Below are positions 3,470-42,790 of a stretch of DNA of 64,000 bases, piece after piece. Under the pieces are notes generated by a model that saw nothing but the letters and a program-made list of their open reading frames with translations, did no database searches and was not told the DNA's origin. Source of the stretch: Alishewanella agri BL06. Lineage in GTDB: Bacteria > Pseudomonadota > Gammaproteobacteria > Enterobacterales > Alteromonadaceae. Position numbers and translations under genes: made by a program. The stretch covers positions 186,001 through 250,000 of the forward strand of contig NZ_AKKU01000026.1 of the NCBI RefSeq assembly GCF_000272005.1, given 5' to 3'. The stretch's first letter is position 1, and every line of letters begins with the position of its first letter.

Positions 3470-4409
3470 TGTCACTCCGGCACAGGAATTAAGTGTTGGT
3501 CAAATTTTACGCCAGGAACGCGAACAGCGGCAGCTCAGTCTGGAGCAAGCTGCGCAGCAACTGAATCTTCGGGTTGAAGTGCTGCGTAGCCTGGAAGATG
3601 ATCAGCCAGACAGCAGCATTTTACCGACTTTTATGCGCGGCTATTTAAAAGCCTATGCCCGGTTTTTAAAACTGCCAGCGCAGCCGCTATTGCAGCAGTT
3701 TGAGCAACAGCATCAGGTAAAAAGCGCGCCGGTAAAGCAGATGCGTACTTTCTCCAACCGCTCAGCACGACAACGCACAGAAAAACGCTTTATGTGGCTA
3801 ACCTGGCTCATTGTCTCGATCATTATGTTGTCATTGGCGCTGTGGTTTTGGCAGAGTGCCCGCGACAGCGGTCTGAGTGTCGCAGACGCCTTGAATAGTC
3901 AGGCAGCCAGTAACCCGTCGGATCCGGCCGCAGTCGTCACAGTACCTACCGAGATGGTTGTGCCGACGTCGGAGCCGACAACTGAGCTTAGTAATGAACC
4001 TGTACCAGAACAAGATAGCGGCAATGTCAGCAGTGAACAGTTAGTGGCTGATCTGGCGCAACTGCCGGTAGCGACGCAGCAACAACTACTGGCATTGTCT
4101 CAGCCAGCGGTAGAGGAGCCGGCGGCGACGGAAAGCTTTGGCGATAGCCGCAATGCCGGTTTAGATGTATTGAAGATGACCTTTACTGACAACTGCTGGA
4201 TTGATGTGGTCGATGCCAATGGCGAGCGCATCGCTTACGGCACCAAACAAGCCGGCTACGTAATGGAACTGAATGCTAAAGCGCCATTCGTGATTACGCT
4301 GGGCAATCCGGGGGTGGTGAGTATTGAGTTAAATCAGCAGCCCTATGATATGTCCCGCTTTCCCGGGAATCGCGTCGCCAAGTTCACTTTGCCAGGACAA
4401 CCTGATTAA
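3456..4409 (+). CDS. rodZ: Cytoskeletal protein RodZ
   Basis: Bitopic inner-membrane protein that couples MreB to the Rod cell-wall elongation complex. Residues ~12-75 form an Xre-like helix-turn-helix ([20 protein letters not shown]). One transmembrane segment lies at ~113-133, followed by a Pro/Thr/Glu-rich periplasmic linker and a DUF4115-type beta domain ([16 protein letters not shown]). The 317-residue length is typical. It overlaps pilW, and its stop overlaps the ispG start (TAATG), suggesting coupled translation. Confidence 0.93.
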
Positions 4410-23086: not shown

Positions 23087-24664
23087 ATGAACAAAAATAT
23101 TCATCATCATCGTATTCTGATCCTCGACTTTGGTTCGCAATATACCCAGCTGATTGCCCGCCGGGTGCGCGAAATCGGCGTTTACTGCGAGCTGTGGGCC
23201 TGGGATGTGACCGAAGCCCAAATCCGCGATTTTAATCCAACCGGTATTATCTTATCTGGCGGCCCGGAAAGCGTTACCGAAGCCGGCTCACCACGGGCAC
23301 CGGCTTATGTATTCGAAGCGGGCGTGCCGGTACTGGGCGTGTGCTATGGTATGCAAACCATGGCAGAGCAGCTGGGCGGTAAGGTGCAGGGCTCAGAGGA
23401 GCGTGAGTTTGGTTATGCCCAGGTCGAAGTGCTGGCGCCAAATGAACTGTTCGCCAAAATTGAAGACCATATCGGCGCTAACGGCAATGCCTTGTTAGAT
23501 GTGTGGATGAGCCACGGCGATAAAGTGGTACAGATCCCAGCCGGTTTTACCACTATTGCCCAAACCCCAACCTGCCCGCATGCCGCCATGGCGGACGAAG
23601 CGCGGCAGTTCTACGGTGTACAGTTCCACCCTGAAGTCACCCATACCCGCCAGGGCCTGCGGATGCTGGAGCATTTTGTGGTGGATATCTGTGGCTGTGA
23701 CAAGCTGTGGACGCCAGCCTCGATTATTGAAGATGCCATCGTACGCTTAAAACAGCAAATCGGTGATGATCAGGTGATCCTGGGCTTATCCGGTGGTGTC
23801 GACAGCTCCGTGGTTGCCATGCTGCTGCACCGTGCTATCGGCAAAAACCTGACCTGTGTCTTTGTTGATAACGGCCTGCTGCGCCTTAACGAAGGCAAGC
23901 AAGTCATGGATATGTTTGGCGATCACTTTGGTTTAAATATTATCAAAGTCGATGCCGAGCAGCGTTTCCTGTCGGCCTTAGCCGGCGTGGATGAGCCGGA
24001 AGCGAAGCGGAAAATTATCGGCCGCGTCTTTGTTGAAGTGTTCGACGAACAAGCGCAAAAGCTGAGCAATGCCAAATGGCTGGCACAGGGCACTATCTAT
24101 CCGGATGTGATTGAATCCGCCGGTTCCGCAACCGGTAAAGCCCATGTGATTAAATCGCACCATAACGTCGGCGGCTTGCCGGAGCATATGAAGCTGGGCT
24201 TAGTCGAGCCACTGCGCGAACTGTTTAAAGACGAAGTGCGCAAAGTCGGTTTAGAGCTGGGCTTACCGTACGATATGCTGTACCGTCACCCGTTCCCGGG
24301 ACCAGGTTTAGGGGTGCGGGTACTGGGCGAAATCAAAAAAGAATACTGCGACTTACTGCGCCGTGCCGATGCAATCTTTATCGAAGAGCTGCATAAAGCC
24401 GATCTGTACAATAAAGTGAGCCAGGCGTTCGCCGTGTTCCTGCCGGTTAAATCGGTAGGTGTAATGGGCGATGCCCGTAAGTACGACTGGGTAATTTCGC
24501 TACGCGCGGTAGAAACCATCGACTTTATGACCGCACACTGGGCACACCTGCCATATGAGTTACTGGGTAAGGTATCGAACCGGATTATTAACGAGATCAA
24601 TGGTATTAGCCGCGTAGTCTACGATATCTCAGGCAAGCCACCAGCAACCATCGAATGGGAATAA
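23087..24664 (+). CDS. guaA: GMP synthase (glutamine-hydrolysing)
   Basis: Converts XMP to GMP with ammonia channelled from glutamine. Class-I amidotransferase domain with nucleophile C86 (GVCYGMQTM) and H/E partners in [12 protein letters not shown]-pyrophosphatase P-loop [13 protein letters not shown]-terminal dimerisation domain ending PPATIEWE. 525 residues. A long palindrome array starts about 50 bases after the stop. The 3' end of guaA is a known insertion hot spot for genomic islands, in keeping with the accessory region that follows. Confidence 0.97.
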
Positions 24665-24715
24665 TTTTGGCGTTGTCAAAATCGTAACGCCATTCTAAAC
24701 ACTACCCCAAACCCA

Positions 24716-25064
24716 GGACTCCGGTACGCTAGCCGTACCGGAGTCCATCCTGCGATAGTGATAGCAGCACCAATCTTATCGTTACCCCGATCCAGGACTC
24801 CGGTACGCCCGCCGTACCGGAGTCCATCCTGCGATAGTGATAGCAGCACCAATCTTAACGCTACCTCAAATCCAGGACTCCGGTACGCGCGCTGTACCGC
24901 AGTCCATTCTGCGATAGTGATAGCAGCGCCAATCTCAACGCTACCCCAAACCCAGGACTCCGGTACGCTCGCCGTACCGGAGTCCATTCTGAGATAGTGA
25001 TAGCAGCACCAATCTCAACGCTACCCAAACCCAGGACTCCGGTACGCTTGTCGTACCGGAGTCC
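24716..25064 (+). repeat. Palindrome array A (five copies, period 79-80)
   Basis: Five tandem units, each with a 31-bp palindrome: 13-base arms GGACTCCGGTACG / CGTACCGGAGTCC around a 5-base loop. Copies are at 24716-24746, 24795-24825, 24875-24905, 24955-24985 and 25034-25064. The third has mismatches in its right arm. Spacers of about 48 bases are nearly the same between units and begin ATCCTGCGATAGTGATAGCA. The array is in the same orientation as array C and opposite to array B. It fills the 3' flank of guaA, and open frames through it are repeat artefacts. Confidence 0.95.
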
Positions 25065-25103
25065 ATCCTGCGATATTGGGATTGGAGCTTTAGTTGATGT
25101 AGT

Positions 25104-25160
25104 GGCTAGATTTTGAGCGCCGCTAGTACCGCAGGCCACGAATGGCGCTGATTGTTAGCT
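25104..25160 (-). other. attC-like site 1 (3' of parE)
   Basis: The right-hand box GTTAGCT (25154-25160) overlaps the parE stop codon. Inverted arms AGCGCC / GGCGCT lie at 25116-25121 and 25144-25149. The left box is poor (GGCTAGA, 25104-25110). The TTAGCT of the right box matches the inverse AGCTAA at the far end of the same cassette (25765). It is probably the degenerate last site of the cassette row. Confidence 0.55.
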
Positions 25161-25457
25161 GTGTTCCAGCATAAATGCACGAAGCTGTCGTTCCTCTCGC
25201 ATGACAAAGAGCACAAAAACCCGCTGCTCATCCTCACGATAAAAAATGCGACAAGGTGGAACCACTATCTCCCTGTATACCGAATCTGGTAGCTCAGGAG
25301 GAATCCGCCCGGATTTGGGGAAACTCGCCAAACGTTCTATCTTGTCGAAAATAGCCTTTACCAGATTGCTTGCGGCGGCAGGATTGTCCAACGCAATATA
25401 CTCAGCAATCGCATCCAGTTCCTGGAGTGCTGGCTCTGTCCAGATTATTTCAGCCAT
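25155..25457 (-). CDS. ParE/RelE-family toxin
   Basis: 100-residue toxin of the ParE/RelE fold, either a gyrase poison or an mRNA interferase by family. Typical features are WTEPALQELDAIAEYIALDNPAAA, the basic PPCRIFYRED strand and the end VMREERQL. It overlaps the upstream antitoxin frame by 13 bases. Cassette 1 of the row. Whether it acts on gyrase (ParE) or on ribosome-bound mRNA (RelE) cannot be read from the sequence; the length and central helix favour ParE. Confidence 0.85.
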   Translation of the reverse strand: MAEIIWTEPALQELDAIAEYIALDNPAAASNLVKAIFDKIERLASFPKSGRIPPELPDSVYREIVVPPCRIFYREDEQRVFVLFVMREERQLRAFMLEHS

Positions 25458-25702
25458 TTACTCATTTTCTGTTTGGCCTCACTTTGGCTAAGCGTTCTTC
25501 CTTCAAGTACCGCACGCTCACCCCGAGAAAGTCCCTCAAGCAGCTCAAGCCGACGCTGCATAAATTCATAATCCTGCACATCAACAAGGTATGCAGATGG
25601 CTGACCATGCTCCGTAATCAATACGGGCTCTTTCGACAGGTGCAGATCTGCCAGAATCTTGGTAGCTTGGCGCTTTAGATTCGTAACTAACTCGACTTTC
25701 AT
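25445..25702 (-). CDS. Phd/YefM-family antitoxin
   Basis: 85-residue antitoxin: an N-terminal DNA-binding Phd fold (VTNLKRQATKILADLHLSKEPVLITEHGQPSAYLVDVQDYE) and a C-terminal toxin-binding helix. It precedes and overlaps its toxin gene. A 28-base perfect palindrome just upstream (25723-25750) is a likely operator for autorepression. Confidence 0.88.
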   Translation of the reverse strand: MKVELVTNLKRQATKILADLHLSKEPVLITEHGQPSAYLVDVQDYEFMQRRLELLEGLSRGERAVLEGRTLSQSEAKQKMSKWLK

Positions 25703-25722
25703 AATTTCAACCTATGCTAAGT

Positions 25723-25750
25723 GAAAAGTGATACTATAGTATCACTTTTC
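25723..25750 (-). promoter_or_regulatory. Operator/promoter palindrome of the Phd-ParE module
   Basis: A perfect 28-base inverted repeat with half-site GAAAAGTGATACTA, centred about 35 bases before the antitoxin start. It holds TATAGT near its centre, suggesting that antitoxin binding covers the -10 element. Confidence 0.65.
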
Positions 25751-25764
25751 GAGTGGGCAATCCC

Positions 25765-25845
25765 AGCTAATGCCAGCCATAACCGGACGCAAAAAGCAGA
25801 GCAAAGCGGCGCTTTTTGCGGTCCGAGTTTATGGTATTGTTAGCC
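25765..25845 (-). other. attC-like site 2
   Basis: 81-base imperfect hairpin with boxes AGCTAAT (25765-25771) and GTTAGCC (25839-25845; includes the stop codon of the gene at 25840). Arms pair as CCATAA/TTATGG, CGGAC/GTCCG and GCAAAAAGC/GCTTTTTGC, with unpaired bases between them, which is the attC layout. It is the clearest folded site of the set. Confidence 0.75.
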
Positions 25846-26553
25846 ATTATTATAATCGGTAAAACCAATTTGCTTGAGTATCATTCGCCCAATTGGCGTC
25901 AAATCTCTATACGATACGGATGGCTTCCCGGAAAACTTGTCGAATTCTGGCATACCGGTATTCCTATCCATACGGTAATGAGGCCTAATAAGGCCAATGT
26001 GCTCCAGATGTCCTTTATAGCTATCTTGTAGAGAGGCCTTCTCTATTGTGCGCTCATCCGACCCGAGATGCGCAGGCACTGGCTCAAGGATATTTCTATG
26101 TTTTCCCCTAAACTCTTCGTCGCCACCAATTGTCGGAACCATGAAGAACCTTAGCCAAATAATCTCTTGTTCGTTCAGCTCTTGAAGTAACTTCAAGATG
26201 TATTTTGACTCTGAATATTCAATTGTCTCGTCATCCACCCCATTAGCTACAACGTTGGCAACATACTTTCTACGCTCATCTGTTAATGATCGAGATGCTT
26301 GAACAAAGCCTTCTTCAAATAGATCAATTCCTTCTTCACTTCTCAAGGCGTTGTCGATTTTTTCGCGATCTATACGGGAAAGCCGAGCCTCAAGCTCTTT
26401 AACGTAATTTGTTAATCTATCTACTCTCTGATTTGGTATTAAGTTACCAACTAATTCGGAAAGCAGTGGTCCGGCAAAAGGCACAGTACCCAAAACAGAT
26501 TTGACTGTTGCGACCAAAGCGTCTGTTTTGTCTTGTTTTAAATCATCCGCCAT
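25840..26553 (-). CDS. Helical protein of unknown function (cassette 2)
   Basis: 237 residues. A hydrophobic, Gly-rich N-terminal stretch (VKSVLGTVPFAGPLLSELVGNLIP) comes first, then a coiled coil (RLTNYVKELEARLSRIDREKID) and a helical/winged-helix-like C-terminal part (SYRDLTPIGRMILKQIGF). I recall similar frames as unknowns in integron cassettes and defence settings, but cannot name a family. The ATG at 26553 follows GAGAG; a TTG two codons earlier is possible. The stop codon lies inside attC-like site 2. AT-rich compared with the core genes. Confidence 0.7.
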   Translation of the reverse strand: MADDLKQDKTDALVATVKSVLGTVPFAGPLLSELVGNLIPNQRVDRLTNYVKELEARLSRIDREKIDNALRSEEGIDLFEEGFVQASRSLTDERRKYVANVVANGVDDETIEYSESKYILKLLQELNEQEIIWLRFFMVPTIGGDEEFRGKHRNILEPVPAHLGSDERTIEKASLQDSYKGHLEHIGLIRPHYRMDRNTGMPEFDKFSGKPSVSYRDLTPIGRMILKQIGFTDYNNG

Positions 26554-26582
26554 AGACAAATTGCTCTCGTTGACTACGCCTA

Positions 26583-26618
26583 GGTTAACCGGCGTCCGCG
26601 TTGAACCGACAGTTAGAC
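26583..26618 (-). other. attC-like site 3 (short)
   Basis: Right box GTTAGAC (26612-26618) agrees fully with GTTRRRY. Left box GGTTAAC (26583-26589), or alternatively GCCTAGG from 26578. Arms GGTTAA / TTGAACC can pair. At 36 bases (about 45 with the alternative left edge) it is shorter than usual attC sites, so it may have lost part of its stem. Confidence 0.55.
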
Positions 26619-26619
26619 G

Positions 26620-28458
26620 TCACGCTTTATTTTGCTCTTGCTTTAAATGATCTAGATGTGGTGAGCAGAGCTTGAGAAAGACCGACTTCCATGCTTCTGG
26701 CAGCAAATCAAAATTACCTCCCCAGTTTGCTTGAATGTGCTCGTGAGCCTTGTATGGTTTTTCTTTTTGTGGTGCAGGATATCCAAGGATATCTTCAATA
26801 CACTCCTCAATCATGATTCTTCGCTCATCACCTGTCTGCAAGCGTATTGGCTCATTCATCGCCTCAGCTTTCTCAGTTCCTTTGTCGCGGTCATGCATGA
26901 GTATGTAATTTATATCAAGCGCATTTAAGTATTTTGCTATGGATATCAATACGGCCTTGCCTCTTGCTCGGAGAAACTCGCAGTTGCCAACTACTCTGGC
27001 TTTATCTTCCTTCGATAATCTTTTAATGGTCTCTCTAATTACAACCTCTTCGGTGTCTCCCTCGACGAAAATGCATTTCTTTGCAAAGAACATTCTAGAG
27101 ATGTAGTCGTCTACCTTGAGTAGCATTTTCAGGTTTTGGCGCTCATCTTTTTGAAGACTCTCGAATGCTTTCTCCAAGTTGAAAGAGTGCGTCTTTGAGA
27201 ATTCATCCTCGTCGGAGGTGAATTTTGTGAGGCTAATGCTCTGCTCTGTTCCAAGATTCACCATGAATGGTGAATGTGTTGTGGCCACAATCTGGCAACC
27301 AGTCCCGGCTAGGTCATAGAGCGCATCTCTCATTTGATTCGCGGCCGCAGGGTGAAGGTATATTTCCGGCTCTTCGAAACAAAAAATTGTTGTTCGAGGC
27401 ACATCGGAGTTTTTGTTTACAAAATCATTGGTAAATCTCAAGAGCTGGAATGCGGTAGCTCTGATCATTCCGTGGCCCTGATAGGGCACCGCAGTCTTGA
27501 CGTTGCTTTCCATTTCCACATTGAATAGTGGCTTAATGGATTTTTCAGGTTGATCTAATGATGCACTAACGTGGATGGATGATTCCGGGAATAAGTTGTG
27601 AGTCATTCCGTTTAGATCCTGGATAAGTCTTCCAAAATCTGTATTTCCATCGCTGGGATTTAGTTCTTTGGCTAGTTCGTTAAGGAGTTTTTGCGCCTGC
27701 TCGTAGTTGTTTGATTTTTTCCTTACTTGGTCGAACAGTTCCGTAAGCAGGGAATAGAGGGCTCCATTATTACTGGTTAGCTCCGAAACGCAAGATTCTG
27801 CGGGTATAACTACTACTCGCGGGAGCTTGGAAAGGACATTGCCTGGTATTCCACCAGGGTTTTCAACCCAAGTCGCATCTTCGTCTGTCTTTATGTCCCA
27901 AAGTTGAGGCAAGTCTAGAATTTTTTGCTTCGCTGCGGCCGTAGTTAAGGATTTCTCCAGATCTTGCTCTTCGAAGTGTTCTTTTAAAAACTCCTCGGTG
28001 AAGTCATCCCCTTTGAGGTCATTAATCTTTTTGGCATTCGCGTACTTCTCACTGCGAGTTCTTTCATGCTCAAGCAAGTAGACTTTGGGTTTGGTTTGGC
28101 TTATTGACCAAATTTTTTTGTAAGTAATCGCGTAGCCAGTATCGCCAGGGGTTGGTGGTGCTTTCTTGGTTATCCGCCCACGAAATCCAATCCAATTGTT
28201 GGCATCTTCCGGAATATTGCGGTACTCGGCAATTATTTCAATTTCTTCTGCATATTTATAGGATTCGTCTTCCGGGATGAATGTCTTAGAGTAATCCTCC
28301 CGAGATACATTTGTATTTTTGTGGAGATTATTGAGCGCTGCAAAGACGCTAGATTTACCTGCATTGTTGGAGCCAATCAGGAATGTCGCATCTTTGAAAA
28401 TAATCTTGCAGTTCTTTAGTTTTCTAAAATTCTTGATTTCTACGGAGTGCAGTTTCAT
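26620..28458 (-). CDS. OLD-family ATP-dependent endonuclease (cassette 3)
   Basis: 612-residue ABC-type ATPase with a C-terminal TOPRIM nuclease. Walker A is GSNNAGKS (29-36), Walker B FCFEEPE (359-365), the H-loop ATTHSPF (392-398). TOPRIM residues are E466 (FVEGDTE) and D523/D525 (MHDRDK). Class 1 OLD layout: no UvrD-like helicase gene lies beside it. Relatives act in phage exclusion. GAGG precedes the ATG, and the message leader ends at attC-like site 4. No accessory gene is in its cassette. Confidence 0.87.
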   Translation of the reverse strand: MKLHSVEIKNFRKLKNCKIIFKDATFLIGSNNAGKSSVFAALNNLHKNTNVSREDYSKTFIPEDESYKYAEEIEIIAEYRNIPEDANNWIGFRGRITKKAPPTPGDTGYAITYKKIWSISQTKPKVYLLEHERTRSEKYANAKKINDLKGDDFTEEFLKEHFEEQDLEKSLTTAAAKQKILDLPQLWDIKTDEDATWVENPGGIPGNVLSKLPRVVVIPAESCVSELTSNNGALYSLLTELFDQVRKKSNNYEQAQKLLNELAKELNPSDGNTDFGRLIQDLNGMTHNLFPESSIHVSASLDQPEKSIKPLFNVEMESNVKTAVPYQGHGMIRATAFQLLRFTNDFVNKNSDVPRTTIFCFEEPEIYLHPAAANQMRDALYDLAGTGCQIVATTHSPFMVNLGTEQSISLTKFTSDEDEFSKTHSFNLEKAFESLQKDERQNLKMLLKVDDYISRMFFAKKCIFVEGDTEEVVIRETIKRLSKEDKARVVGNCEFLRARGKAVLISIAKYLNALDINYILMHDRDKGTEKAEAMNEPIRLQTGDERRIMIEECIEDILGYPAPQKEKPYKAHEHIQANWGGNFDLLPEAWKSVFLKLCSPHLDHLKQEQNKA

Positions 28459-28516
28459 TTTTTCCTCTTGGCTTTAAGATGTGTGCGCATGATTGTGCAA
28501 ATAACTTACCAATGAC

Positions 28517-28600
28517 GTCTAACGCCGCCAGCACGCGCGGCTTTGTAGTGAAGGCGAAGCCGCAACGGAAAATACGCCGCCGTGACTTGCTTTGTTAAGT
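28517..28600 (-). other. attC-like site 4
   Basis: Boxes GTCTAAC (28517-28523) and GTTAAGT (28594-28600) both fit the attC consensus RYYYAAC..GTTRRRY, with GC-rich inverted arms between (CGCCGCC..). GTCTAAC is the exact inverse of GTTAGAC at the 3' end of cassette 3, as expected for one cassette. The 84-base length is normal for attC. Confidence 0.8.
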
Positions 28601-28603
28601 CGC

Positions 28604-29488
28604 CTAAACACATATTTTCTGCAAAGCACTATCAATACCAACCACGAGGTTATACTTTGTGTTTAAGGTAAGAGAAAAAATCAAAGCAGGATGTAGTTCA
28701 GATTTCGTAAAGCCTTCTTTGAAATGTTCACCGTCCTCATGGTTTGCAAAAGCAGCTTTCATAATCATAGCTCCTTTCCCTTCGTGTCCCCCTTGTGCAT
28801 AAAGTAACAGGGCTCCCCGCGATTGGTCTGAGTGATAATGCCCTATGTAGGTAATAATGTCTTTTTGCAATTCTGGATGATGGTCCAACTCAAAATTGGA
28901 TAATAGAAACTTCAGTTCAGTTACGAAGGCATCTTCATTGGCATAAAAACACTCTATGGATGTATTAAAGCCATTTCGATACTTAAGTGATATGTCAAAC
29001 ATTCCCGATAGATCTTTCTCTCTATACTTCTCATCAAACTTCCAATGCTTTCCTTCTCTCATTGTTGCTGGAGTTGTTACTTCAAAGAATGAATTCTCCA
29101 AATTACTGAAAATCCAAGAAAGGGTGGTTCCGTATGATTTTAATTTTCTGTCATTTGTTAGTATTGACTGTTGTTTCAATGCTTCTTTAGTTTTACTTTC
29201 TATCTTCCTTGCGTGGCCTGTCCAAATCGCATTGATAAAAAGCCCCAGAATTGTTATCCCAAAGAGAGCCTGAAAAGATATCGCAATCTGAGCAACTGAT
29301 GATGTAGGAATAATGTCCCCATATCCGAGTGTAGTTATCGTCACTACACTGAAATATAGAGCATTAACAGGAGTTAGATCCTTATTTAATTGTCCGTGCG
29401 GTAGGAAGTAATAAAAAATGGCAAAGACGAGTATGCAAGCCACGTAGGAACAGAATAGCGCCTTAATAGATATTGAAACAAATCGCAT
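28604..29488 (-). CDS. Two-TM potassium-type ion channel with large cytosolic domain (cassette 4)
   Basis: 294 residues. TM1 ~6-29, pore helix, selectivity filter TLGYG (53-57, context VVTITTLGYGDI), TM2 ~65-88, then about 200 cytosolic residues that I do not recognise (ending VVGIDSALQKICV). The filter predicts K+ selectivity. A TrkA-N/RCK nucleotide fold is not obvious. Strong Shine-Dalgarno AGGAG. As a lone cassette among defence-like genes, it could be a membrane-depolarising effector or simply a stress channel; this is inference. Confidence 0.8.
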   Translation of the reverse strand: MRFVSISIKALFCSYVACILVFAIFYYFLPHGQLNKDLTPVNALYFSVVTITTLGYGDIIPTSSVAQIAISFQALFGITILGLFINAIWTGHARKIESKTKEALKQQSILTNDRKLKSYGTTLSWIFSNLENSFFEVTTPATMREGKHWKFDEKYREKDLSGMFDISLKYRNGFNTSIECFYANEDAFVTELKFLLSNFELDHHPELQKDIITYIGHYHSDQSRGALLLYAQGGHEGKGAMIMKAAFANHEDGEHFKEGFTKSELHPALIFSLTLNTKYNLVVGIDSALQKICV

Positions 29489-29502
29489 AACTCTCCTTTG
29501 TG

Positions 29503-29594
29503 ACTTAACGCCAGGCTTAAGGGCGGTTTTGTAGCCGCGAAGCGGCGGAAAGGCCGTCCCAGGCCCTAGGGGCGATAACAGCCGATTATTAACT
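29503..29594 (-). other. attC-like site 5
   Basis: Boxes ACTTAAC (29503-29509) and ATTAACT (29588-29594), with an internal CCGCGAAGCGG hairpin at the tip. ACTTAAC is the exact inverse of GTTAAGT at the 3' end of cassette 4. The right half (CCCAGGCCCTAGGGGCGATA..) closely resembles the sequence 3' of higA at 51640-51680. Confidence 0.75.
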
Positions 29595-29658
29595 GTATGT
29601 TTTAAAAAGGCTTGAATGCTTAAGATTCTTCAGCCTCTCTACCACTTGCAGCTTCATG

Positions 29659-31362
29659 CTATTTTTTTTGTTTGAAAATATCAATTATAAAATGCATTGG
29701 AACGGGTAGCCTGTAATGCCTACAGCCAGTTAAGATAATCGGCCAAAAAGAATATCTGAAAGCAGTCATATCATAAATTTTATCTGACTGATCACACTCA
29801 CTAACCAACTGCTGAATCAATTCATCTGGCGCTTCAGTCACGCAAACATTAGATAATGTTGCACCATGCATTTTATCGAATCGGTAAAAATGATTTTCAG
29901 AAGAATCATCAAGAAAATATACTTGAAAATTACAGTGTGATAGAAACTCTTCTTTAATTTTTTTAACCATCTCATATGGCTCCGGAAATCCCATAATCGC
30001 TGAAAAAGCAGATATATAGGGGTATAATATTGAGCCTTTAGTTACGCTTTTCTTATAATCTTCAGTTTTATCAAGGGGGTGCTCTATTAATTCGGCGTAG
30101 CTTCTTATGGTTGTCGGGTATTTATCGCTGAACTTAAACATTTGATATATCTCCCGTGACATATTGCTCAACCAAGAGTTGATATCATTCCAATGTTTGT
30201 GATCAAGAGAAAGGAACCAAACGGCTAATACTAAATCTATTGCTTGTTCATCCTTGTATGGTGTAAACAAAATAGGGTTGTTTACGATTAACTGCTTGAT
30301 GCTGTCTTGATATTTAGTTACTGCTTCTGAAAAAAATATGCCAGCCTCTACATTTTCATCACTAACTTGGCCTAAATACCAATAAGACCAGCAACCTGTA
30401 AGGGCTAGCCGACCTAGAACATCAAATAACTTTAAGTTTACATCTGCGGCACAAGACGGTTTTACAGCATGTGATATAGCATAAAAATTATTGCAATGAG
30501 GTATGATTCTTTCTTCAATATATTGATTTGATACTTGCAGATTTAGCCTAAGAATTGAATCCAAAGTTATCAGTGTAGAAACTGCTACATTATTTTTTTT
30601 GCCGAAAGCAAATTTCGCAGCTTCCCAAGTATTTAGCATTGTAAATTCAGCTGATAGGAATGCGCTCTCTAGATTATCCCCATCTCTACACCATGAGTAT
30701 AATATCCAAAGACATAAATATAATTGGCGAATACCTGTTAAAACGTCTTTTGGTTTTTTGTCATCAGTGCAAGTGAGGCTAATGGCAAGCTGTCTAAAGT
30801 GTTTAAATGATACTTCGGGCTCGTCAATCATCGCCAGTGACTTGCGAAGTAGACTGCGACAATTATCGGGTAACAGTTCCTCTCGAAGCATGTGCTGCTC
30901 CACTAAATCAGCAAGCCTGTCGCCATTCCATTCAGAGAAGCTTAATTCATCTGTTTTTAATTTACCTAAAAACATACTTACGTTAGATCTTACCTCTTCT
31001 TTAACTTCACCACCAAAGCATAAACAAATCTCAACAGGTTTATCTTTGTATTCTGCTGGAATTCGAGTAGGAATAAATACATCGATTATTTCATTGATAG
31101 AAGGACGCAAATCCTGTGGATTACCGCTATCCCAATCCTTTCTGTCCAAATCCCCAGACTTTACTGAGAATAAGTAAACAGTGCTTTCAGATTCGCTAGT
31201 CAGTTTACCAAAAGCTGCAACATCTACTCCGAACTGTCTGCTGCCGACGCCAGGTTTTAAAAATACTTCCAACCCCATTTGCGACAGTAAGTCGGGCAAT
31301 AAGGCATCTAATTCACCTCGTTCTTTCAAGGATGCTAAGTATTGTCTAATCACTAATTTCAT
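29659..31362 (-). CDS. Nuclease-like protein of unknown family (cassette 5, second gene)
   Basis: 567 residues. The N-terminal ~100 residues resemble a PD-(D/E)XK fold: G-V-D-V with D47, then a strand YLFSVKSGD with K68, though the usual acidic or Gln residue before the lysine is a serine (S66). The remaining ~450 residues look all-helical, with no family I know. The ATG at 31362 overlaps the upstream stop as ATGA, with GAGGG before it, so translation is coupled to the helical-repeat gene. Likely a nuclease plus scaffold pair; the nuclease assignment is tentative. Confidence 0.65.
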   Translation of the reverse strand: MKLVIRQYLASLKERGELDALLPDLLSQMGLEVFLKPGVGSRQFGVDVAAFGKLTSESESTVYLFSVKSGDLDRKDWDSGNPQDLRPSINEIIDVFIPTRIPAEYKDKPVEICLCFGGEVKEEVRSNVSMFLGKLKTDELSFSEWNGDRLADLVEQHMLREELLPDNCRSLLRKSLAMIDEPEVSFKHFRQLAISLTCTDDKKPKDVLTGIRQLYLCLWILYSWCRDGDNLESAFLSAEFTMLNTWEAAKFAFGKKNNVAVSTLITLDSILRLNLQVSNQYIEERIIPHCNNFYAISHAVKPSCAADVNLKLFDVLGRLALTGCWSYWYLGQVSDENVEAGIFFSEAVTKYQDSIKQLIVNNPILFTPYKDEQAIDLVLAVWFLSLDHKHWNDINSWLSNMSREIYQMFKFSDKYPTTIRSYAELIEHPLDKTEDYKKSVTKGSILYPYISAFSAIMGFPEPYEMVKKIKEEFLSHCNFQVYFLDDSSENHFYRFDKMHGATLSNVCVTEAPDELIQQLVSECDQSDKIYDMTAFRYSFWPIILTGCRHYRLPVPMHFIIDIFKQKK

Positions 31363-32564
31363 GACGTACAACCCTCAGCTCTGAACTGCCAGATCATATT
31401 TTCTAGTCCGTGCGGGTCGAGGTTAAGCATTGATGCAAATTCAAATGATGTACTAATTTCACTAAGAGAGACTTCCTGGCGTGTCTTTTGTTCACCATGA
31501 TGTATATAGTGAATCGACTTATTTCCATAGAGTAATACGGATTCATTCCCACCAAATAAAGAAGTAAAAAGTGATTTTTTTCTGGCCTTCTTCATAGACT
31601 CGTTCATTAACTTATTGTGATGCCTCCAGTACGTATGTCTATCCTGCTCACTGGGGCTCAATTCATTTATTTTTAGAGCCACTTTCACTGATGCTTGATA
31701 TTTTTCGTATTCAGACAAAACATCAGATGCTATCTGTTTGCATCTTTCTTCTTTTGACTCGTTCATTGTTTCCAAGTGGTTACGAATACTTCCAGGGTAA
31801 CTCACACAAAGCGGGTGAAAAATGAGCTGCTGAATATCCTTTAATTCATCATTAGGAGCATCAAGGATCAAGGACTCAATTAAACTAATAGCTGTTTTAG
31901 GCTGATTAAAGAACCATCCACAAGCTTTTCTTGCTAAAAATAGGTGTACGCCTTTTTTTTCTTTAGTTACGTATGAATAGTCAAAACCAATAGAAATACA
32001 TTTATCTGAATCCCGAAGAAGATCAGAAGCATATTTTCCTAGCTTTACTTTTTTTGACAATAACCATCGTGTAATTAATGAGGATAGATGAGTATCTCTG
32101 TGATTATGCAGCTCCCGAACAAAACTATTGAAATGCCTTATAGATAGCTTGTATCTACTTAATTCAAATAATTTTTCCAGAAAAACAACGCAATCATCAA
32201 ATCTGTTTCTTTTTAATATTCTCCCCAGAGCGTAATCAATATTTTTAATGGTTCCTTGGTTTTCTGGTTTGGTATGGCTGCAAATATTCAACAACTCAGG
32301 TTCAATATTGTTGCTTACTTTCTTCTCGTCATAAAGTAATATTTCTGAAGCAGCATGAATATATCGATAATCTAAGTGGTCTGAATGCGTTTTTAGAAAA
32401 TCTAAGAACAAGCTCTCTAAATCATCAGATTGAGAAGTAATGTTAAACAACGCTCTAATTGATTCCGCTAAAATAACATCCGTTGGCGAAGACGCGGATG
32501 ATTTTTTGATGGCTATTGCAACTGGCTTTAATAGAATTTTTTCTTGGTAATTAATTCTACCCAA
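31359..32564 (-). CDS. Helical-repeat (HEAT-like) protein, C-terminal part after an in-frame stop (cassette 5)
   Basis: 401 residues from a TTG, but the frame is open back to 32660, directly after the stop of the 147-residue frame (32661-33104), and both are in the same frame. The readable upstream part (AGASNDEFQYVNQAIELL, then HESDLIIQRSIFALG) looks like the same helical-repeat protein. Intact, the product would be about 582 residues. Repeats of paired helices continue to ~residue 300. The end overlaps the nuclease-like gene (ATGA). As annotated, the start has no clear ribosome binding site, which supports a broken or read-through gene. Confidence 0.6.
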   Translation of the reverse strand: MGRINYQEKILLKPVAIAIKKSSASSPTDVILAESIRALFNITSQSDDLESLFLDFLKTHSDHLDYRYIHAASEILLYDEKKVSNNIEPELLNICSHTKPENQGTIKNIDYALGRILKRNRFDDCVVFLEKLFELSRYKLSIRHFNSFVRELHNHRDTHLSSLITRWLLSKKVKLGKYASDLLRDSDKCISIGFDYSYVTKEKKGVHLFLARKACGWFFNQPKTAISLIESLILDAPNDELKDIQQLIFHPLCVSYPGSIRNHLETMNESKEERCKQIASDVLSEYEKYQASVKVALKINELSPSEQDRHTYWRHHNKLMNESMKKARKKSLFTSLFGGNESVLLYGNKSIHYIHHGEQKTRQEVSLSEISTSFEFASMLNLDPHGLENMIWQFRAEGCTS

Positions 32565-32660
32565 TGCAAAAATGGATCTTTGTATAATTAAATCGCTCTC
32601 ATGAGCAAGTAGTTCAATCGCTTGATTAACGTATTGAAATTCATCATTGCTTGCGCCTGC

Positions 32661-33104
32661 TTAAATAGCAGTAGATAAATAGTCAAAATCTTTGTCAATA
32701 TTATTTAAAGCGATATAAAATAGCTCTTTTGCTCTATCTGTATGTTTTTTACAGAACTCTTTAAATGAGGGGGAAAGCATATGTGCGGCCATATTTTGGC
32801 CAGCTTCTAGCGTAAGATGCTTTACGCAATCAGCAACGTCTTTTACCGGAGCATTAATATTCGGTAAAACCTCTTCAAAAATATGTCGAACTGAGAAAAA
32901 ATCATAATTTTCAGTTTTATTTTTAAGACTAGCGAATAACTCTACAAGATCTAGCGGCCCTTCATTATGTAATTCAACCAAAAGGCTAGGCAGAAGATTT
33001 TGACCTCTTCGGTCTTCATAATAAACTTCTTGGATGAGCTCAAAAAAATTACCATCCATATTGGCTTTCAACAGTTTTTCTTTGAGTTCATCCACGACGC
33101 TCAT
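32661..33104 (-). pseudogene. N-terminal part of the split helical-repeat gene (cassette 5)
   Basis: 147 residues from MSVVDELKEKLLKANMDGNF to FDYLSTAI, then TAA (32661-32663). The frame goes on without another stop into the next coding region, so a single nonsense codon divides one gene. AGGA lies directly before the ATG; the GTG three codons later has better spacing. The longer frame to 33197 would run through the attC-like site and is not a real start. It could be a true pseudogene, a strain-specific stop, a sequencing error or read-through. Confidence 0.6.
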
Positions 33105-33134
33105 TCCTATAACTATAATCTGGGCACTCTTGAC

Positions 33135-33205
33135 AGTTAACGCTCGGCTCAGCGGGCAATTGGAGCGAAGCGGAAAATTTGTCCGACAGCAACGCATTGT
33201 TAAAG
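33135..33205 (-). other. attC-like site 6
   Basis: Boxes AGTTAAC (33135-33141) and GTTAAAG (33199-33205; includes the stop of the gene at 33200). Between them are GC-rich arms typical of attC (AACGCTCGGCTCAGCGGGC and TTTGTCCGACAGCAACGC). AGTTAA is the exact inverse of TTAACT at the 3' end of cassette 5. Confidence 0.72.
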
Positions 33206-34282
33206 CTTTCTGACGCCAAGTACAATTCTATTTTTTGAATCGATGAGCGTTCTAATAGAATCATCTCGATAGATTGATTCGTTTGAATCATAGGAATCCT
33301 TCGTGGACCATATTGGCCCTGTTAAAGCGGATTTTACTTGCAGCGGAACTTGATCAATTACATCAACCACTTTATTGATGTAATGCTCTATACGGTCATT
33401 GAATTTTGGCAGCACTGCATATTGACTATTTGCTAGAGCAAGTGCGCTCGCACATTGAAGTTCTTTTGATGCATTAGGATCATTTGCATAGGCATCGCTC
33501 ACGGCCATTACTGCTGTTTGCAGTAAATTTACAGGGTCATCTTCTCTCGCCAAACCTGAGATGAGATTTACATCTTTGAGATACTTTGATAAACAAATGA
33601 TTAAAGAACTGTATTCACCTTCGAACACAAATGGTGTTAGACAATCACCTTCAGACAGCCAAAATTTGACTTGCCCCTCCGGTATAAGCCCATCATGAGG
33701 ATGTACAGTTCCGAAATTGGGCAGATCAGCTTTGAAATCATCCCATTTCAATCCATGAATGCTTACATGATCTACAGAGTGGGCACCAAGAAAACCATCA
33801 TATTCACTGGGCAGGAAGACAGTAACCTCTGTTTCGCCCCCGGTATAATGATCCCATGCGCAAATCCAAAACACTCTGGTAGTAGCCGTTCGAACGGAAG
33901 AACCAACTCGGCCAATAGAACGAGTTACAATATCGTTAACAGCCAATTTCAGATTTTCTTGTAGCTCCTTAACCTGGAGTATGCTTATGACACTATTTGG
34001 ATCATGTTTGGCATCATTATATGCAAGCCTGAGATTGTGAATGAAATCGACTTTAGATTGGCTTATAGCGTGCGATTTTAATTCTTCAATAAATGAGTAG
34101 AAATTATCCCTGTTGTTTTTCGAAGGGAACACATCACGTTTAAGAAATAGCTCTGTAGCTGAAGCGATCTTTGATAGTAGATTTTTAATATCTGATCCAT
34201 CATAGCCCTCGATCATGTATTGATTCAGTAACCGCAATGCCTCATCTATTTCAGAGACCATTGCTCGTCCATAAGTACTCAA
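33200..34282 (-). CDS. Protein of unknown function (cassette 6)
   Basis: 360 residues. The N-terminal ~120 residues are helical (EIDEALRLLNQYM, then FIHNLRLAYNDAKHDPNSV) and recall the N-terminal helical domain of some abortive-infection proteins. The middle is beta-rich (TRVFWICAWDHYTGGETEVTVFLP). No known catalytic motif was found; an RxxxxxxxH stretch (RLAYNDAKH) has the wrong spacing for a HEPN nuclease. It is the promoter-proximal cassette of the row. Its 5' boundary CTTTAGC (34308-34314) is one base from the inverse of its 3' box. Confidence 0.6.
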   Translation of the reverse strand: MSTYGRAMVSEIDEALRLLNQYMIEGYDGSDIKNLLSKIASATELFLKRDVFPSKNNRDNFYSFIEELKSHAISQSKVDFIHNLRLAYNDAKHDPNSVISILQVKELQENLKLAVNDIVTRSIGRVGSSVRTATTRVFWICAWDHYTGGETEVTVFLPSEYDGFLGAHSVDHVSIHGLKWDDFKADLPNFGTVHPHDGLIPEGQVKFWLSEGDCLTPFVFEGEYSSLIICLSKYLKDVNLISGLAREDDPVNLLQTAVMAVSDAYANDPNASKELQCASALALANSQYAVLPKFNDRIEHYINKVVDVIDQVPLQVKSALTGPIWSTKDSYDSNESIYRDDSIRTLIDSKNRIVLGVRKL

Positions 34283-34557
34283 TTTTTGAACTCCTGGTGC
34301 TTTTGAGCTTTAGCTTATTCGACGGAAAGCCCCGTATTTAAAAACAGATGTTTCCGCTTTTGTAAATTTAATGTTTGGAACATTACATCGGTTTTTTATT
34401 GCGCACAATAGGTTATAGGTACAGCTGGTATTTGTATTTGCTGCAAATACGGACTAATCCGTCTAAGAGCATTGGCTATGCCTAGAACAGGATATTTTTA
34501 CAGCTCCAACATTCGCTTTTACGACTACAACATGTTTCTACTCCATATCGCAGATTG

Positions 34558-34888
34558 TGACTCCGGTACGTCAAGCATACCGGAGTCAGGTGGAGTAGCG
34601 AGGGCTGTTGCAAAGGCTTGGTGCCATCTCCCCTAAACCAAATCCGTGTTCCATACTGCGGCATCGGTAAAACGACGACATTGGTTTTCTGCTCTAGCTC
34701 GCAGATGTGACTCCGGTACGGCAAGCATACCGGAGTCAGGCGCAGTAGCGAGGGCTGTTGCAGAGGCTTGGGGCCATCTCCCCTAAATCAAATCCGTGTT
34801 CCATACAGCGGCACAGGCAAAACGACGACATTGGTTTTCTGCTCCAGATCGCAGGTGTGACTCCGGTACGACAAGCATACCGGAGTCA
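34558..34888 (-). repeat. Palindrome array B (three copies, period 150)
   Basis: Three copies of the 31-bp palindrome (arms TGACTCCGGTA / TACCGGAGTCA) at 34558-34588, 34708-34738 and 34858-34888, exactly 150 bases apart, in a nearly identical longer unit. A diverged fourth unit seems to lie to the left (34515-34557). The tag CTGCGA that follows the palindrome in arrays A and C lies on the other side here (reverse TCGCAG), so the array is inverted relative to them. It fills the 34283-35027 gap; the rest of that gap is AT-rich with no gene that I can support. Confidence 0.92.
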
Positions 34889-35027: not shown

Positions 35028-35486
35028 ATGCGTAACGTCAAAGTCATCCAGCATAGTATTGTGATAAAGGCACCAGTCGAACATGTCTGGCAACGGATGT
35101 TTGACCCACAGGCTTACCGGCAGTGGACGGCGGCTTTTTGCGAAGGCTCTTATTATCAGGGCGAATGGCGGCAAGGTGAGACGATACGCTTTCTCGATCC
35201 CGACGGTAATGGCATGGTCGCGCATATCGCCGAGGTACGGCCGTTGGAGTTTATGTCAATCAGCCATCAGGGTTTTGTGTATGCCGGGCGTGATGATCTG
35301 GACAGCGAACAGGTAACAAGCTGGGCGCCAGCCTTCGAAAATTTCCGTTTTCTGCGCCATGGCGACATCACCGAGCTGCAGGTTGAGCAGGAAGTGGCTG
35401 CGGAGTACGAAAGCTTTATGCAGCAAGCCTGGCCCAAAGCACTGGAAAAACTCAAGGCCCTGTGTGAGTCATCCCAAGCGCTATGA
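35028..35486 (+). CDS. SRPBCC (START/Bet v1-like) domain protein
   Basis: 152-residue single-domain protein of the AHSA1/polyketide cyclase group: a hydrophobic-ligand cradle starting KVIQHSIVIKAPVEHVWQRMFDPQAYRQW and ending with a long C-terminal helix. Ligand unknown. AGAGGA lies before the ATG. It stands alone between array B and the GNAT gene. Confidence 0.82.
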   Translation: MRNVKVIQHSIVIKAPVEHVWQRMFDPQAYRQWTAAFCEGSYYQGEWRQGETIRFLDPDGNGMVAHIAEVRPLEFMSISHQGFVYAGRDDLDSEQVTSWAPAFENFRFLRHGDITELQVEQEVAAEYESFMQQAWPKALEKLKALCESSQAL

Positions 35487-41878: not shown

Positions 41879-42790
41879 ATGCCAACACCACCGCTGTCCG
41901 CCGAAAATCTGCACCTGATCCAACAGTTTCAGGAACAACTGGAACTGGAGCAGGCCGCCAGCGTGCATACGCTAAGTGCTTATGGCACGGATCTGAAACA
42001 TTTCGCCCGTTTTTGCCAGCAACAGGGGCAACCGCATCTTACGGCAGTGAGCAGTGATCTGATTAACCGCTATCTGGCGAAACGCTATGACGAGGGTTTT
42101 AACCCGCGCAGCACTTCGCGGCTACTAAGCAGCCTGCGCCGTTTTTATCGTTATCTGGTGCAACAACAGCAGCTTGCGCAAGACCCAACCACTGAGCTGA
42201 TTAACCCCAAAATTGGTAGCAGCTTACCGAAAACGCTGTCGGAGCAGGATGTTGAAGCCCTGCTGGCCGCGCCGGATATCAGTGAACTGATCCAGTTTCG
42301 CGATAAAGCCATGTTGGAGTTGTTATATGCCACTGGCATCCGGGTAACTGAGCTGGTGACACTATCGATGCAACAACTGTATTTGCAGCAGGGCATAGTG
42401 CGGGTGCTCGGTAAAGGGCGCAAAGAGCGCTTAGTGCCCATGGGCGAAGAAGCGCAGTACTGGCTTAGCCGCTATTTAAAAGAAGCACGGCCGGCGCTAC
42501 AGAGTCAGCTTAGTGATGTGGTGTTTCCCAGTAGCCGGCAACAGCTGATGACACGGCAAACCTTCTGGCATCGGATTAAGTTTTATGCGAAAGTAGCCGG
42601 CATTCGGGCTACCTTGTCGCCCCATACGGTTCGGCATGCCTTTGCCACGCATTTGCTGAATCATGGTGCGGATTTACGGGTGGTGCAGATGTTGCTGGGG
42701 CACAGTGATCTCTCTACCACACAAATTTACACCCATGTCGCGCAGGCGCGCTTACAGCAATTGCATCAACAACATCATCCGCGCGGTTAG
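41879..42790 (+). CDS. xerD: Site-specific tyrosine recombinase XerD
   Basis: Resolves chromosome dimers with XerC at dif. 303 residues: SAM-like N-terminal domain, catalytic R154, K179, H249, R252, H275 and Y284 all present (HTVRHAFATHLL, LGHSDLSTTQIYTHV). First gene of xerD-dsbC-recJ. Its genomic setting marks it as the housekeeping enzyme, not an integron integrase. Confidence 0.96.
   Translation: MPTPPLSAENLHLIQQFQEQLELEQAASVHTLSAYGTDLKHFARFCQQQGQPHLTAVSSDLINRYLAKRYDEGFNPRSTSRLLSSLRRFYRYLVQQQQLAQDPTTELINPKIGSSLPKTLSEQDVEALLAAPDISELIQFRDKAMLELLYATGIRVTELVTLSMQQLYLQQGIVRVLGKGRKERLVPMGEEAQYWLSRYLKEARPALQSQLSDVVFPSSRQQLMTRQTFWHRIKFYAKVAGIRATLSPHTVRHAFATHLLNHGADLRVVQMLLGHSDLSTTQIYTHVAQARLQQLHQQHHPRG

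Follow-up and report, generated by a model that had tools for sequence, protein, structure and literature searches.

Results and Discussion

How does a row of integron cassettes come to stand in a chromosome with no integrase gene beside it, and does it still take part in recombination? The question is raised by the window, a 64,000-nucleotide stretch of Alishewanella agri BL06 (contig NZ_AKKU01000026.1, positions 186,001 to 250,000 of the forward strand), in which six minus-strand cassettes lie between guaA (23087–24664) and a gene at 35028–35486 that we take to encode an SRPBCC protein. The array is located inside a contig of 473,841 bases and not at its end. A first-pass annotation, made from the sequence alone, had described it as resembling a cluster of attC sites lacking an integron integrase (CALIN), and the integron cassette structure of the locus is confirmed below. 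We consider it likely that the array is docked on an orphan attI, one of many scattered attI platforms without the integrase gene intI that would be served in trans by an integrase (IntI) encoded elsewhere.

The window array begins at an attI homologue

The 113 bp preceding the first cassette of the window are 74% identical to the head of a second array of the same genome, on contig C20, and the identity ends at the cassette junction. With another orphan copy this leader shares 81% identity over 157 bp. A 135-base leader query gave 120 matches in the genomes of the genus and was present in 31 of 31. Eleven of these matches have an intI gene within 1 kb, and there the sequence is that integron's attI. 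Since the leader is a homologue of the attI that adjoins intI elsewhere, the window array is, as judged by homology, headed by an attI without intI. Two features of the window belong to this head:

34313..34470, minus strand: orphan type-B attI lacking intI; the 3′ end, at 34313, adjoins cassette 6
34488..34503, minus strand: worn SOS-type box, CTGT-N8-CCTG, at offset −191 from the junction

Full-length leader matches that are not beside intI number 68 and are spread over 27 of the 31 genomes. An alignment of 58 copies, three of whose rows are off-register palindrome matches, shows about 160 conserved bases with a sharp end at ...CCGCCGAATAAGC|GTTAG, and the layout is the same beside clade-B IntI. 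Within 1 kb of the window leader no match to intI was found, so that the locus is not a complete integron. The first-pass statement that the window holds no IntI gene also proved correct: the only tblastn match is a more distant tyrosine recombinase gene (42035–42739, plus strand, 30% identical to IntI), presumably a housekeeping one of the XerC/XerD type.

The IntI proteins of the genus fall into three clades, each with an attI type of its own; this grouping is based on identities and sequences, and the orphan searches covered types A and B. The search with type A gave 43 matches in 22 of the 31 genomes, of which 16 lie no more than 1 kb from intI, and 8 are full-length and non-adjacent. These searches under-count, because the type-A search missed both sites on contig C1 of the window genome. 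Beyond the genus, matches to the leader query occur in another 13 genomes of the family (25 of 246 overall); most are short pieces, and G484 and G469 have full-length matches. L216 (G016:C45) carries a more distantly related intI, at 45% identity to the IntI of the window genome, and we assume that it resembles a class 1 mobile integron.

Two other views of the array ends were considered and rejected. The leader is not a cassette itself, as its 3′ end, inspected by eye, has no R″ box matching its own start. The 9-bp CTAAAGCTC found at both array ends is not a target duplication, as the copy on the right straddles the attI/cassette junction and that on the left falls outside the attC. Palindrome repeats (CGTACCGGAGTC) flank the array at 24700–25070 and 34555–34760; they also occur around the C20 array and behind intI on contig C12.

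Five arrays in one genome, each headed by attI

The 3.49-Mb draft genome that contains the window (G000) encodes one full IntI, on C12 (TIGR02249, 460.9 bits), with a divergent cassette array. Because a home-made attC pattern scan returned sites amid much noise, we adopted covariance models: R1, trained only on ten attC sites of this C12 integron, and R2, trained on 134 sites, one of them from the window (attC4; sites are numbered after their cassettes). A genome-wide R1 search, which scored 150 of 1168 first-look candidates, gave at least 35 attC matches, on C12 (13), at C1:383.8–395.5 kb (17), at C1:405.0–406.8 kb (3), on C20 (1), and in the window (1).

Each of the five arrays found in this genome is headed by attI, and four of them lack intI. 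The C12 array has attI plus intI. Of the two C1 arrays, the one at 383.8 kb has a type-A-like attI with a retained CTGT-N8-ACAG box and no intI, and the one at 405 kb has a 93-bp copy of that attI (90 of 93 positions identical) ending at the junction; the C20 and window arrays both have type-B heads. The attI cores of these C1 arrays (L072, 2000–15001, and L073, 8430–10760) share 97% identity over 93 bp, which would fit the copying of one to the place of the other. The two arrays stand after what we take to be uvrC-pgsA-like and thiamine genes.

The leaders are also followed by arrays in other genomes. From 40 further loci plus the window and C20, 41 leaders passed a filter that dropped matches ending before query position 99 or shorter than 50 bases, by which L125 was lost. 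R2 attC matches were found downstream of 31 of the 41 leaders, and within 1 kb for 24 of these. All 143 downstream matches are on the strand of the leader, and none were found in the ∼1.5 kb covered upstream. In loci without intI, 29 of 39 leaders have attC matches.

Cassettes differ at shared orphan loci

We compared leaders not beside intI that have homologous upstream flanks of at least 200 bp, which yielded 19 pairs in seven sets, regarded as one locus in different species, pairs within one set not being independent. In 17 of the 19 pairs nothing similar was found in the following 700 bp, and the other two share short out-of-register pieces. The homology stops +2 to +7 past the AAGC/G junction, at the G|TT core, in 13 pairs. 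Among intI-linked pairs, two stop at +4 and +6, and a third has a common first cassette. Comparison of copies thus places the joining of cassettes to attI at G|TT, the window's own box being two bases short.

The closest pair is the C20 locus of G000 and its counterpart in the relative G003. The flanks are 96.5–97.7% identical, the first cassettes are unrelated, and neither flank has an IntI match even at E ≤ 1. As both flanks are free of intI and the first cassettes differ, the ancestor of the two was most simply already without intI at this locus. The second cassette behind the G003 leader and a cassette of the G000 C1 array at 405 kb share 82% identity over 415 bp, and attC4, the best model match of the window, is 90% identical to one attC on C12. 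These likenesses suggest that the arrays draw on one pool. Most genomes of the group contain scattered orphan docks, at which cassette exchange seems to have continued; such exchange would be catalysed in trans by IntI.

Origin of the orphan attI and competing explanations

A perfect CTGT-N8-ACAG box is located at −197/−198 from the junction in all eight intI-adjacent type-B copies examined and in 1 of 51 other copies, in 22 of which the best match is at −196 to −198. The SOS box at a common offset points to descent of the orphan attI type from a platform that had intI, and we infer that the worn box of the window is a relic of the intI promoter. A tree was built from copies with an AATAA-like motif near the junction, one per identical sequence (82 reduced to 59), with the intI-linked L220 and L233 outside the set. 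In this tree, a single branch separates 49 of the 51 non-adjacent copies from the 8 intI-adjacent copies and two others; its support of 94/89 is below the program's mark for strong support. The junction reads AAG/GTT in 51 of the 59 copies, a figure biased by the motif-based selection. The tree favours few losses of intI, followed by spread of an intI-less platform.

We propose that an ancestral platform, consisting of attI and an SOS-controlled intI promoter, lost intI, while attI stayed with its array, and that the intI-less attI type came to occupy many chromosomal places in the genus. IntI from elsewhere in the cell would then add and remove cassettes in trans by the usual G|TT crossover. 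The guaA platform carries a toxin-antitoxin pair and defence-type genes, and its decay has begun. A wider claim, which we regard as evenly balanced, is that the Alishewanella/Rheinheimera integron is a distributed system, in which several intI-less attI platforms per genome, forming a repeat family dispersed along the chromosome and inherited in fixed positions, gain and lose cassettes through the trans action of one or few IntI, perhaps across attI types; CALINs would then be standing outposts and not dying remnants.

Each orphan could instead be a complete integron that lost intI in place, exchange having preceded the loss and the arrays now being inert. Such plain decay, which we judge unlikely, fits the worn SOS box as a mark of a former intI and the decay of the window array itself. 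It also fits L128, where 43 residues of intI and an intact box remain, and the two intI copies with stop codons in G016. However, among the non-adjacent copies searched (∼1.6 kb upstream), L128 alone gave an IntI match at E ≤ 1, the position of the 49 copies on one side of the branch suggests few losses and then spread, and the C20 flanks of G000 and G003 are free of intI, yet are followed by different first cassettes.

Very improbable, in our view, is that an unrelated transposase spread the leader as a repeat element, for instance in the manner of the flanking palindrome repeats, with the attI sequence carried along and the arrays as passengers. Although copies are present at many loci and both type-B arrays of the window genome lie amid CGTACCGGAGTC repeats, neither terminal repeats nor a target duplication were established, and the conservation stops where the cassettes start. 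Taken only as a means of dispersal, transposition is compatible with orphan attI platforms served in trans. Seeding of a CALIN at an ordinary chromosomal attG, with no attI, can scarcely be credited: PMC12444791, in the relevant part, cites insertion at attG by IntI as known, but the first cassette here adjoins an attI homologue that belongs to a dispersed family, and not a unique stretch of chromosome.

Several observations weigh against orphan platforms served in trans. The full IntI of the window genome belongs to clade A, whereas the window leader is of type B. A two-mismatch SOS box arises by chance in a fraction of 0.33 of shuffles, so that only the common offset supports a relic, and a simple promoter scan of the leader found none. 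In the same-locus pairs, homology ends at +16 and +23 in two of 19 and inside the leader in four. Ten of the 41 leaders have no attC match, four of these with less than 4 kb of downstream sequence, and the sequence covered per leader was ∼1.5 kb upstream versus up to 13 kb downstream. Against the identity of the sites as attC, Rfam gave nothing at gathering score and only chance-level matches at a lax threshold, and in single-stranded DNA folding one of the six attC sites, attC2, beat its own shuffles (z −4.65). Finally, since the attI box and the last attC of the window are worn and OloA is interrupted, the window platform may now be frozen.

Cassette boundaries and attC sites

The cassettes and their attC sites, in reading order of the array, are as follows:

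33141..34312, minus strand: cassette 6, first in reading order; 360-amino acid protein at 33200–34282; attC6 at 33135–33205, R2 rank 4
29509..33140, minus strand: cassette 5, Olokun-type pair; attC5 at 29503–29594, matched by R1 and R2
29659..31371 (OloB) and 31359 to about 33.1 kb (OloA), minus strand: genes of cassette 5; PADLOC scores 674.5 bits for OloB, 289.9 and 85.8 bits for the OloA pieces
28523..29508, minus strand: cassette 4; 294-amino acid ion-channel protein at 28604–29488 (Pfam Ion_trans_2); attC4 at 28517–28600
26589..28522, minus strand: cassette 3; 612-amino acid OLD-family ATPase/TOPRIM protein at 26620–28458; boundary uncertain
about 26583–26621, minus strand: attC3, between cassettes 3 and 2; atypical, R′ box uncertain; no R1 or R2 match
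25771..26588, minus strand: cassette 2; 239-amino acid protein at 25840–26559; attC2 at 25765–25845 (models and fold)
25110..25770, minus strand: cassette 1, last; ParE-type toxin at 25155–25457 and Phd/YefM-type antitoxin at 25445–25702 (Pfam)
25104..25160, minus strand: attC1, outermost and decayed; R′ core altered relative to G003; weak R1 match (E 0.6)

The first-pass annotation had counted nine frames divided by six attC-like palindromes. The coordinates stand as given there, and the nine frames correspond to eight genes, two of the frames being pieces of OloA. Integron recombination makes the first bases of a cassette complementary to the R″ box of its own attC. When the six cassette starts are set against the six R″ boxes, the true pairing matches 34 of 36 letters, a score reached by 1 of 720 permutations, which bears out the earlier claim that the pairing is improbable by chance. 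An alternative start for cassette 2 lowers the score to 31, again reached by 1 of 720. The three stop codons said to lie inside the right-hand box were located in the R″ boxes of cassettes 1, 2, and 6. The one-base-off pair of cassette 6 sits at the start of the array, where most orphan attI copies read AATAAGC|GTTA and the window reads AATAAGC|TAAAG, so that two bases seem to be missing from the window's attI box.

Both covariance models, with E-values that are rough owing to short calibrations, recovered sites on a 10-kb stretch around the array. R1 gave attC4, attC2, and attC5 as the top three of eight matches (E 0.00028–0.016), whereas attC1 overlaps match 4 (E 0.6) and attC6 is match 6 (E 2.4). 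With R2, attC4, attC5, attC2, and attC6 are the top four of nine (E 2.6e-9, 0.00055, 0.00097, and 0.033), and a control stretch of equal length gave seven matches, the best at E 1.2. attC1 and attC3 are weak in the models because the core of attC1 is changed and attC3 is atypical. Of the checks proposed with the first-pass annotation, the covariance-model one thus succeeded, R2 recovering four of the six at E ≤ 0.033 and the independent R1 three, whereas single-strand folding singled out attC2 alone. That the locus is no integron, the palindromes having arisen by chance among repeats, can be dismissed despite the missing Rfam match and the five sites that fold no better than shuffles, as it is contradicted by the 1/720 pairing, the model matches with a clean control, and a boundary-exact difference in G003.

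This difference is found at the guaA locus itself. The GuaA proteins of G003 and G016 are identical to that of the window. G003 shares the left flank and cassette 1 with the window at 91% identity, the match stops at the attC between cassettes 1 and 2, and a different attC and a different cassette follow. The predicted break at a cassette boundary in a related genome is thus present and, together with the attC model matches, supports the assignment of the array as a CALIN without an integrase beside it. G003 reads GTTAGCC where attC1 of the window has its altered core. At the guaA locus of G016 there is unrelated DNA, and guaA adjoins the SRPBCC gene in three other relatives, with 90–94 bases between the matches. 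The guaA gap was considered as a fixed integron site and rejected, an R2 attC being found in 1 of 32 relatives' loci (G003), some of which are short or cut by contig ends. A truncated attC-like stretch is present at L040 (G003; oriented about 4080–4290), where G003 lost the leader end of the guaA array, and beside it lies the apparent start of what is presumably an IS66-type gene.

Relation to known systems

CALINs are common and are usually taken as degraded integrons or stray insertions. Like them, the window array consists of attC sites without an adjoining intI. Unlike them, it and the other three intI-less arrays of the same genome start at attI, and copies of this attI type are widespread in the genus. 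In Xanthomonas, according to the portion of PMC12444791 concerned with CALINs, about half of the genomes have CALINs at a distance from their complete integron, and in that portion attI is not mentioned at CALINs. What is added over known CALINs is the attI at the array heads and its repetition. The titles and abstracts of the open-access literature searched, outside which most subscription papers fall, include none on an intI-less attI heading chromosomal arrays, which is no proof of absence.

The same source, where it turns to attG, cites insertion of cassettes there by IntI. The proposed docking resembles this in that cassettes would be placed outside the integron by IntI acting in trans, but attG is described as a loose consensus, whereas the target here is a long, recognisable attI homologue. 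In the Delta-attI-type cassettes of mobile integrons, as outlined in part of PMC12901181, attI pieces likewise occur apart from intI and recombine with IntI1. There, however, the attI piece is located downstream of a gene in a mobile integron and replaces attC, whereas here a complete attI stands at the head of a chromosomal array. A role of integrons as stores of anti-phage genes is also cited in PMC12444791. The combination of OLD-family, Olokun-type, and toxin-antitoxin cassettes in one array is similar, but their defence function is deduced from families and OloA is interrupted.

If arrays indeed keep their own attI, obtain IntI from elsewhere, and continue to exchange cassettes, platform and enzyme would evolve apart, and one genome might run several independently placed cassette stores. 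Searches that take attI into account would then reclassify many CALINs, and trans action of IntI in nature would become directly testable at named loci of sister strains.

Cassette contents

A defence function of the cassettes is suggested by protein families. The cassette 3 protein matches Pfam AAA_15 and OLD-like_TOPRIM and is called Old by PADLOC. An in-frame stop at 32661–32663 interrupts OloA, which makes the intactness of oloA in the Olokun pair of cassette 5 doubtful. Pfam and PADLOC scans assigned no family to the 360-amino acid protein of cassette 6 or to the 239-amino acid protein of cassette 2. Four proteins were searched for in 247 genomes drawn from the order, the window genome included: the 360-amino acid protein was found in 1 genome, the channel protein in 3, OloB in 9, and the 239-amino acid protein in 2. 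A remnant of an Olokun pair is also present in genus g33 (L087, 787–1642), where a piece of OloA (76%) is joined to the end portion of OloB (82%), with a deletion of what lay between.

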